A DNA stretch of 64,000 nucleotides, taken from Methanocaldococcus lauensis (GTDB lineage Archaea; AGJL01; Methanococci; Methanococcales; Methanocaldococcaceae). The stretch covers positions 1,197,030-1,261,029 of the forward strand of contig NZ_LR792632.1 in NCBI RefSeq assembly GCF_902827225.1. The letters run 5' to 3'. Below, piece by piece: positions 4,078-44,486 of the stretch. A model generated the notes under the pieces. The model was not told the DNA's origin. It saw only the letters and a list, made by a program, of their open reading frames with translations, and made no database searches. The first letter of the stretch is position 1. Each line of letters opens with the position of its first letter. The position numbers and the translations under genes are program-made.

Positions 4078-4188
4078 TGGTGGGGGTGCTGGGATTTGAA
4101 CCCAGGTCCAGGGATTTCTCCTGCTATAGTCCAGTGCCCTATAGGCATCTGGAGTCCCCGATGATAGACCTGGCTACACCACACCCCC
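4078..4188 (-). tRNA. tRNA-Trp (CCA) with a 33-nt intron
   Basis: The minus strand folds as a cloverleaf with acceptor stem GGGGGTG paired to CACCCCC, a T-arm containing GGTTCAAATCC, and anticodon CCA at 4152-4150. The anticodon stem closes only when about 33 bases (4148-4116) are removed after position 37, the canonical archaeal intron site. The exon-intron junction region can form the bulge-helix-bulge recognised by the splicing endonuclease. A discriminator A (4081) is followed by an encoded CCA at 4080-4078. The intron is too short to hold the C/D box guide RNA found in the tRNA-Trp intron of some other euryarchaea. Confidence 0.95.
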
Positions 4189-12759: not shown

Positions 12760-12765
12760 CCATAG

Positions 12766-12831
12766 CCATAGGGCTCCGCCCTATTGGGATACCCGGGATG
12801 CATTGCCTCGCAATGCTCGGCAATGCCTCTT
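12766..12831 (-). repeat. hairpin element copy a (CRISPR-like head missing)
   Basis: These 66 bases are identical, in reverse orientation, to 13474-13539 inside the CRISPR array. They contain the two hairpins of the element: CCATAGGGC/GCCCTATTGG, closed by TCC, and GCATTGCC/GGCAATGC. The part of the element that resembles a CRISPR repeat is absent; the homology stops at CCTCTT, after which the sequence is TTTCATAAT. The copy lies directly behind the aCPSF1 stop codon, and on the plus strand the second hairpin is followed by CTCTTTTT. It forms an inverted pair with the array copy, bracketing the CRISPR leader and first repeats. Confidence 0.85.
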
Positions 12832-13210: not shown

Positions 13211-13570
13211 GTCTAAAATCAGACCCCTAAGGGGATGGAAAATTGCAGCAATGAGCTCCTTTTCAGATAATATTGATTCGTCTAAGTCTAAAATCAGACC
13301 CCTAAGGGGATGGAAATAAACCACAACCTAAGCAAACCAAACTAAACTTCTTAGATGGTCTAAAATCAGACCCCTAAGGGGATGGAAATAACTTTCCATA
13401 AAAATCATTTCCTCTTTACTACCCGTTTTAACTGTTTAAAATCAGACCCCAAAGGGAAAAATGATTTTAATTTAAGAGGCATTGCCGAGCATTGCGAGGC
13501 AATGCATCCCGGGTATCCCAATAGGGCGGAGCCCTATGGGTGTAAAATCAGACCCCTAAGGGGATGGAAA
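13211..13570 (+). CRISPR. short CRISPR array: three perfect, one near-perfect and one broken repeat
   Basis: Perfect 31-base repeats lie at 13211-13241, 13286-13316 and 13358-13388. Each begins GTCTAAAATCAGAC, continues CCCCTAAGGGG and ends ATGGAAA. Spacers are 44 bases (13242-13285), 41 (13317-13357) and 45 (13389-13433). At 13434 a fourth repeat starts but keeps only about 22 of the first 23 or so bases before turning into the hairpin element. A fifth repeat, differing by C to G at position 3, occupies 13540-13570 and ends the array. Two palindromes, GTCT/AGAC and CCCC/GGGG, lie inside each repeat. The 3' GATGGAAA matches the usual crRNA 5' handle of type I or III systems. No cas gene is in the window. 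Confidence 0.9.
13434..13540 (+). repeat. hairpin element copy b, within the CRISPR array
   Basis: A 107-base element. Its head (13434-13456) is a CRISPR-repeat look-alike, GTTTAAAATCAGACCCC then AAAGGG. An AT-rich link (13457-13473) joins this to the body, with hairpin GCATTGCC/GGCAATGC (13479-13505) and a second stem, CCCAATAGGGC/GCCCTATGGG (13517-13540). It runs directly into the last CRISPR repeat, sharing its first G. It is nearly identical to the unit at 44379-44486 (about seven differences), and its body is identical to 12766-12831. No open reading frame and no obvious target duplication are present. Confidence 0.85.
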
Positions 13571-13635
13571 TTTTTATATATTCTTTTATGTATGTTTTTC
13601 TTTCTTCAACATTTATTTTTTATTGTTTTCATTTT

Positions 13636-42990: not shown

Positions 42991-44169
42991 ATGATTGCTA
43001 ATGTGGATTTACACATACATTCAAGATTTTCTGGAGGAACATCAAAAGATATGAATATAGAGAATATATTAAAGTATGGAAAGTTGAAAGGATTAAACAT
43101 TATTGGAACTGGTGATTGCACACATCCAGAGTATTTAAAGGAGATAAAAGAGTATAAAGACAGAGAACTAATTTTAACAACTGAAATTGAAGATAAAGAT
43201 AGAGTTCATCATCTCATTTTACTACCTTCAATAAGTAAGGCAGAAGAACTTAGAGAAAGTTTAAAAAAATTCTCTAAGAATATTGACACAGAAGGTAGAC
43301 CTAAAGTAAATATTGGCGGAAAAGAGTTATTAGAGATTGTTAAAGAAATTGGTGGTTTGATAGGACCTGCACATTCTTTTACGCCGTGGACATCAGTTTA
43401 TAAGTCATTTAATTCAATATATGAGTGTTATGAAAAAAAACCAGATTTTGTTGAACTCGGTTTATCGGCAGATACTGATATGGCAGATATGGTTCCTGAA
43501 CTTAGAGATTTGCCATTTTTGTCAAATTCAGATGCTCATTCCTATCATCCACACAGATTGGGTAGAGAATTTAATCAAATAGAGGTTGATTATATAGGTG
43601 GAGTTGAAGATAACTTTGAAGAAATAAAGAAAGCTATAACTCACAACAAAATTTTAGCAAATTATGGATTAGACCCAAAATTAGGAAAGTATCATTTAAC
43701 TGCCTGTTCTAAATGCCATACAAGGTTTAAGTTGGAGGATGCTAAAAAATACCATTGGAAATGCCCAAAATGTGGAGGATGTATAAAGAAAGGAGTTTTA
43801 AGTAGGGTTGAAGAGTTAAGTGATGGAAAAATAGAACATCCTAAATTTAGACCTCCATATTATAGAATAATTCCATTGGCAGAGATTGTAAGTTTGACTC
43901 TCAACAAAGGAATATTTACAAAAACTGTTCAAAGTTTATGGGAAGAATTTATTAAAAAATATGGTAATGAGATAGAAGTATTGATAAATGCAAATATTGA
44001 GGAATTATCTAAAATTAACCCAAAAGTGGCTGAAACTATAAAGAGGTTTAGAGAGGGAAGAATATATATCTATCCAGGTGGCGGTGGAGAATATGGTAAA
44101 ATATCATTCAAACCACAAAAAATTAATTGGTATAAGGAGGAGATAACATTAGATAGATGGCTAAAATAG
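42991..44169 (+). CDS. EndoQ-like PHP-domain protein
   Basis: 392 residues. The N-terminal PHP phosphoesterase domain has NVDLHIHSRFSGGTSKDM (metal-binding His pair), TGDCTHPEYL, a GPAHSFTPWT segment near 128 and SNSDAHSYHPHRLG near 172. A zinc ribbon, CSKCHTRF and CPKCGGC, is near 235-260, and a C-terminal helix-hairpin-helix-like part follows (LSKINPKVAETIKRFREG). The combination matches endonuclease Q of Thermococcales, which nicks DNA 5' of uracil, hypoxanthine or abasic sites, and methanogen homologues share the layout. Activity here is inferred. AAGGTGATAAT precedes the ATG. The gene diverges from pus10. Confidence 0.85.
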   Translation: MIANVDLHIHSRFSGGTSKDMNIENILKYGKLKGLNIIGTGDCTHPEYLKEIKEYKDRELILTTEIEDKDRVHHLILLPSISKAEELRESLKKFSKNIDTEGRPKVNIGGKELLEIVKEIGGLIGPAHSFTPWTSVYKSFNSIYECYEKKPDFVELGLSADTDMADMVPELRDLPFLSNSDAHSYHPHRLGREFNQIEVDYIGGVEDNFEEIKKAITHNKILANYGLDPKLGKYHLTACSKCHTRFKLEDAKKYHWKCPKCGGCIKKGVLSRVEELSDGKIEHPKFRPPYYRIIPLAEIVSLTLNKGIFTKTVQSLWEEFIKKYGNEIEVLINANIEELSKINPKVAETIKRFREGRIYIYPGGGGEYGKISFKPQKINWYKEEITLDRWLK

Positions 44170-44301
44170 AGTTAAAAATTTTTTATTATTTTGTAACAAA
44201 AATTTTAGAATTTACCGAGAGTCGTTATTACTTTTAAAATATATGTAAATATAGAAATCTATGGATTTTTATGATACTGAAATAAAATTAAGAGAACAAA
44301 T

Positions 44302-44486
44302 CCCCAATGCATTATCTCGCTTTGCTCGATAATGCCTCTTAATTTAATATTATTTCCCCATTGGGGTCTGATTTTAAACCCATAGGGCTCCGCCCTATTG
44401 GGATACCCGGGATGCATTACTTCGCTAACGCTCAGCAATGCCTCTTAAATTAAAATCATTTTTCCCTTTGGGGTCTGATTTTAGAC
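44302..44486 (-). repeat. tandem hairpin elements at an orphan site (copy c)
   Basis: On the minus strand a full 108-base unit (44486-44379) begins GTCTAAAATCAGACCCC, runs through the two hairpins and ends CCCTATGGG. It is followed at once by a second, truncated unit (44378-44302), TTTAAAATCAGACCCCAATGGGG and one hairpin. The full unit differs from the array copy (13434-13540) at about seven positions, clustered in the first hairpin. In the truncated unit that hairpin is GCATTATC/GATAATGC instead of GCATTGCC/GGCAATGC. The rest of the gap 44170-44571 is AT-rich and shows nothing else. Confidence 0.85.

Follow-up and report, generated by a model that had tools for sequence, protein, structure and literature searches.

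Between two protein-coding genes of Methanocaldococcus lauensis, two units that each join a CRISPR-repeat-like head to hairpin sequence follow one another at positions 44302-44486 of the 64,000-nt stretch analysed here (the window; 1197030-1261029 of the 1.53-Mb chromosome, genome G000). How array-type sequence came to stand there without an array, and what the hairpins are, is the question raised by this locus. A preliminary description, drawn from the sequence, treated the place as an orphan site at which RNA or DNA folding, rather than sequence, is being preserved; that interpretation is partly supported by the comparisons reported below.

Layout of the two units and the fold of their hairpins

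The tandem consists of the following parts.

44379..44486, minus strand: unit 1, complete (CRISPR-repeat-like head, linker, hairpin A, hairpin B), 94-99% identical to units ending several G000 arrays
44464..44486, minus strand: head 1, GTCTAAAATCAGACCCCAAAGGG, which matches the opening 23 nt of the genomic CRISPR repeats at 96% identity
44414..44441, minus strand: hairpin A of unit 1 (GCATTGCTGAGCGTTAGCGAAGTAATGC)
44379..44402, minus strand: hairpin B of unit 1 (CCCAATAGGGCGGAGCCCTATGGG)
44302..44378, minus strand: unit 2, a truncated terminal unit with head TTTAAAATCAGACCCCAATGGGG and hairpin A; the orthologous unit ends an array in G005 (L108:6024-)
44309..44335, minus strand: hairpin A of unit 2, with the compensated stem GCATTATC/GATAATGC

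Compared with the genomic repeats, head 1 lacks the last 8 nt (ATGGAAAY) and is separated from hairpin A by the linker AAAAATGATTTTAATTTAAGAG. The sequence GCAT-(T/C)-GGGGAT in unit 2 suggests that hairpin B and most of a last repeat may have been deleted there, leaving the GGGGAT of that repeat. Seven copies of the motif TAAAATCAGACCCC are found in the window, where 0.74 would be expected; 0 of 100 shuffles had as many. Of the seven, five lie at a CRISPR array near 13.2-13.6 kb and two at 44302-44486. The tandem of head-plus-hairpin units with an array-type junction, as first described, is present on the minus strand, and the junction CCCTATGGG-T-T/G-TAAAATCAGACCCC is common to it and to the array copy at 13437-13556.

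The compensated change described in the first stem of the truncated unit is likewise real: hairpin A of unit 2 reads GCATTATC-GAGCAAAGCGA-GATAATGC where the array copy has GCATTGCC..GGCAATGC, with two changes per arm, all paired. Unit 1 differs from the array copy by GCATTGCT..AGTAATGC, which includes one G-U pair. Since the ortholog in G005 has the same stem as unit 2, the change is one older event and not an event at 44302-44486, and it is not evidence by itself. The mini-stem of the head, also said to be kept, is found in head 2, which carries CCCCAATGGGG, but the head of unit 1 has only three G (CCCCAAAGGG). RNA folding of a 187-nt stretch gave z = -5.3 for the minus strand and z = -5.1 for the plus strand; both strands fold.

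Constraint on the fold is visible in the element family as a whole. In a genus-wide MAFFT alignment of 35 copies, 97.2% of stem cells are paired and 8 pairs have changed on both sides. Among 85 distinct copies, whose alignment was fitted to the model and with which the less biased MAFFT alignment agrees, 98.3% of stem cells are paired and 17 of 18 pairs are doubly changed. There are 147 such cells compared with 27.4 in shuffles, and none of 500 shuffles matched this covariation; controls with slid pairings had only 23-46% of cells paired. In the 85 copies, each of the 10 pairs of stem A has changed on both of its sides. Compensated in dozens of copies, these changes show the fold of the element to be itself under constraint. 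Preservation of folding therefore holds through the whole family and not through this unit pair alone, while the phrase "rather than sequence" was too strong, as the unpaired AATGCATCC, GGGTAT and CCAATAGGG are among the most conserved columns.

The covariation could stem solely from maintenance of a perfect palindrome at the DNA level, as a cruciform or single-strand DNA serving movement, with no RNA role, and we rate this at slightly under an even chance. The element is mobile, as documented below, and intermediate GU and AC cells (30 and 18) do not differ (p=0.11), so that the conserved folding cannot be assigned in this way to RNA or to DNA, the two options named in the preliminary description. 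On the other side, the reading strand has a conserved tandem G-A/G-A mismatch in 49 of the 85 copies, a mild hint in favour of folding by this strand rather than its complement, though common descent also explains it.

Units at the ends of CRISPR arrays

The CRISPR array of the window has these features.

13213..13571, plus strand: CRISPR array with one element between its penultimate and last repeat
13474..13540, plus strand: element copy (hairpins A and B) within this array
12763..12831, minus strand: headless element copy, inverted, directly upstream of the leader of this array

Of the 9 CRISPR arrays of G000, 8 have a complete unit at their trailer end, array L097 ending in a plain repeat without the element. 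In G005, which is strain SG1 of the same species, a unit ends all 7 arrays examined, one of them with the truncated form, and in the arrays examined in G009 the array-end copies have that species' own repeat as head. The element was found in none of the 16 CRISPR repeat clusters of M. jannaschii. In every array-borne unit the element is preceded by the initial ~23 nt of the local repeat, and in most it is also followed by a repeat. The duplication around the element is at most ~24 nt in arrays, without the last 8 nt of the repeat, and shorter than elsewhere. Judged from the repeat hairpin, the missing ATGGAAAY would be the expected 5' handle of the crRNA. Duplication and recombination of arrays best account for the spread of the unit to nearly all of them, because arrays also have leaders and trailers in common.

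Several of these features might instead indicate that the unit serves to cap the ends of CRISPR transcripts: its handle-less head would give Cas6 processing no guide to release, and its hairpins would terminate transcription or shield the 3' end. The site at 44302-44486 would then be left over from a functional part. Its near-universal presence at trailers in three genomes, the compensatory changes in its stems and the fact that the head stops exactly at the point at which the repeat hairpin predicts cleavage by Cas6 all fit such a role. However, array L097 does without it, array L096 has a unit in mid-array followed by 12 more spacers and a second unit, M. jannaschii arrays lack it altogether, and elsewhere the element sits mainly at ordinary gene ends. 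We consider an end-cap function an unlikely but serious rival explanation of the units.

Other arrangements were observed at these loci. The complete unit at L096:1486-1594 has 7 repeats before it and 12 repeats plus the second unit after it, so that L096 looks like two arrays fused end to start. At the G005 array end L100:1852-2139, a spacer plus unit is tandemly duplicated (182 bp), possibly an intermediate of array shuffling. Upstream of the leaders of L093, L097 and L098 there are inverted element copies too, so that certain CRISPR loci lie between elements of opposite orientation. Elsewhere in the window, positions 4081-4188 give a 108-nt tRNA match, long enough for an intron.

Copies and insertion sites of the element

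The pair of hairpins, here called E, is an element of ~66-85 nt with no coding capacity. In a covariance-model search, most genomes of the genus contained 25-50 copies each, but G003, G008 and G012 had few or none; G035, which belongs to another Methanococcales genus, had 42. Most copies in the genus are headless. For 60 headless copies, the left flank was compared with the right, the 99th percentile of mismatched flank pairings serving as threshold. In this sample, which comprises the best-scoring copies and includes some orthologous insertions, so that the counts are not fully independent, 27 of 60 copies exceeded the threshold against 0.6 expected, and the other 33 showed no clear flank duplication. 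The duplicated stretches are typically 30-66 nt long with 80-100% identity, and mostly abut E on both sides. What is duplicated is in most cases the 3' end of the gene that precedes E, stop codon included, or else the region where an opposite gene starts. This preference for gene ends may be survivorship, because insertion there leaves the gene whole.

Empty sites in sister species confirm that E inserts. At the end of the Nob1 gene, E with a duplication of ~50 nt is found in G004 only, and G001, G006, G005, G000, G009 and G011 are uninterrupted. At the end of hypE, E is flanked by 42 duplicated nt in G001, and G006 and G002 are uninterrupted. E is thus mobile and duplicates its target. In G001, G004 and G011, moreover, duplicated 3' ends of hypE enclose hairpin inserts that differ from one another (L207/L208), apparently through independent insertions at this gene end.

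An unbiased scan for direct repeats enclosing an insert, run over 1.6 Mb of G004, which we take to be the M. jannaschii chromosome, returned many GC-rich hairpin mosaics of E and related modules, together with CRISPR arrays, tRNAs and coding repeats. These mosaics constitute a modular hairpin system. At G004:C1:873505-873674 and similar places, three to four different hairpin modules stand in a row within one long direct duplication.

The ends of E, AAGAGGC and CCCTATGG, are not inverted repeats of each other, and no autonomous partner was found. Three ways of moving E were considered and rejected. Retroposition (SINE-like) by a resident reverse transcriptase is contradicted by the presence of PF00078 in 0 of 14 genomes, mobilisation by a Y1 or RAYT enzyme by the lack of a Y1 transposase gene in 12 of these 14, including G000, and a viral or plasmid carrier by the absence of the E pattern from viral contigs and of any plasmid match. 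Imperfect palindromes, an extragenic position and many copies are what a REP/REPIN-type element moved by an IS200/IS605 (Y1) transposase would display. Nevertheless, only 2 of the 14 genomes, not including G000, have such a transposase, the element starts with AAGAGGC and has no GTAG (or CGTC) tag, and it makes long target duplications, which Y1 elements are not known to make. An identity of this kind is accordingly very improbable.

History of the site at 44302-44486 and known counterparts

Comparison with SG1, in which synteny between the two genomes was derived from selected stretches, bears directly on the origin of the tandem. Its surroundings are as follows.

42991..44169, plus strand: gene of the TIGR00375 family (PHP-type), which in G005 follows the trailer of array L108
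44180..44291, minus strand: CRISPR trailer sequence, sharing 95-98% identity with what follows arrays L096, L097 and L102, and also with the trailer-type stretch in L098
44572..45435, minus strand: Memo-like gene, which in G005 lies on the leader side of a different array, L102

Window positions 43001-44379 are 97.5% identical to G005 L108, and the TIGR00375 gene comes next in both genomes. In G005 this locus has a leader and 28 repeats and ends in a truncated unit orthologous to unit 2. Unit 2 and the gene downstream therefore correspond to the end of a living 28-repeat array, and the claim of an orphan site without array fails. The flank on the Memo side is 97-99% identical to the leader side of G005 array L102. 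A leader (~500 nt) and all spacers are absent between the two flanks. An array at the orthologous place, repeat-derived heads and trailer sequence mark the site as an array remnant. An Rfam search gave nothing above the gathering score, with only sub-threshold CRISPR repeat matches (RF01358). Between the Memo gene and the leader in G005, L102:1926-2477 is an apparent insertion-sequence remnant absent from the window's genome.

Exchange of array flanks is not confined to this place. At 3 of the 4 G000 sites with both flanks assignable, the flanks are re-paired relative to G005: L090, L092 and L107 are recombinant, and both partners are kept only at L088. Moreover, G005 has two further leaderless remnants. 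In L105, the argF-side flank of G000 array L097 joins a unit and the trailer of G000 array L094; in L099, a flank that is not near any array in G000 joins a unit and the trailer of G000 array L090.

Taken together, these observations make it very probable that 44302-44486 is the trailer end of a lost array, a scar where two arrays recombined with loss of leader and spacers, and that its hairpins are a small non-autonomous mobile element with long target duplication that had entered a terminal repeat. Points that speak against this reading are the 33 headless copies with no clear duplication, the shorter duplication around E in arrays and the lack of E in array L097. By contrast, it is extremely improbable that head and hairpins form one mobile unit which inserted de novo as a tandem at a site with no array history. 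The two units do stand in tandem without leader or spacer, but the truncated unit, the trailer and the gene neighbour are orthologous to the end of the full array in G005, which rules out de novo insertion at an orphan site, and most copies in the genus have no head. Least probable of all is a role as ectopic CRISPR repeats giving regulatory RNA (CreTA-like), which the repeat-like sequence outside an array might recall, since both heads lack the 8-nt handle, the "spacer" is a conserved hairpin and not a guide, no toxin RNA or cas neighbour was seen, and the site is an array remnant.

The history that would lead to such a scar can be outlined as follows. E inserts with a long target duplication, and so can enter a gene end yet leave the gene intact. 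In an ancestor of the clade, E may have entered the terminal repeat of a CRISPR array, and partial duplication of that repeat would have placed the head, a repeat shortened by its last 8 nt, in front of E and a repeat behind it, so that we infer the head to be duplicated target. Through duplication and recombination of array loci, the trailer bearing E would then have reached nearly all arrays, and units 1 and 2 would be the ends of two arrays, united by crossing-over within their repeat-like parts. The order of these events and the spread by array recombination are likewise our reconstruction, and for the loss of the leader at 44302-44486 no intermediate was seen.

With three scars in two strains of one species, and most assignable flanks re-paired, these loci illustrate how a hyperthermophile loses and reshuffles its CRISPR arrays. 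They also pose a testable question, namely how a tiny hairpin element inserts with unusually long target duplications while sparing the host gene. We tentatively suggest, as a reading less probable than not, that the E family of modular hairpin elements inserts by a mechanism unlike those of the known prokaryotic small-element classes, that in one clade such an element was fixed at the end of nearly all CRISPR arrays, perhaps with a second role as a functional boundary, and that it marks sites where arrays collapsed in the course of chromosome rearrangement. The mechanism is called unlike known classes because E has no terminal inverted repeats, no reverse transcriptase is present, a Y1 transposase is mostly absent and the duplications reach 30 to 66 or more nt. 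Long duplications, location at CRISPR ends and array scars of this kind were not found reported in the open-access literature searched, an absence that is weak evidence.

Among known systems, CRISPR array trailers carry degenerate terminal repeats and arrays serve as recombination sites. Chromosome rearrangement linked to CRISPR reportedly has a precedent in Thermotogales. Unlike known degenerate trailers, the one described here contains a mobile hairpin element that is fixed at nearly every trailer of a clade and marks lost arrays. The palindromic repeats of M. jannaschii, whose groups are reportedly named MJRE1-3, are likewise short, palindromic and present in many copies in the same group of organisms, and 52 model matches occur in G004. 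Such palindromic repetitive DNA elements were reported by Suyama, Lathe and Bork (2005, FEBS Lett 579:5281, as cited in PMC2229807), and E probably belongs to the same family; the long target duplications, the empty sites, the location at CRISPR ends and the array remnants are results of the present analysis. REP and REPIN elements, associated with RAYT transposases, are palindromic, extragenic, numerous and hairpin-forming (PMC3733652), as is E, but E differs in having no GTAG tag, in the absence of a Y1 transposase from most host genomes and in its long target duplications. The nearest analogue of the insertion signature is provided by the enterobacterial YPAL and RU-2 elements, which are not A+T-rich, contain internal inverted repeats, lack a terminal TA and make target duplications that vary in size (3-26 bp; PMC2229807). 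E shares these features with them, whereas its duplications are longer (typically 30-66 nt), its sequence is unrelated and its hosts are archaea.
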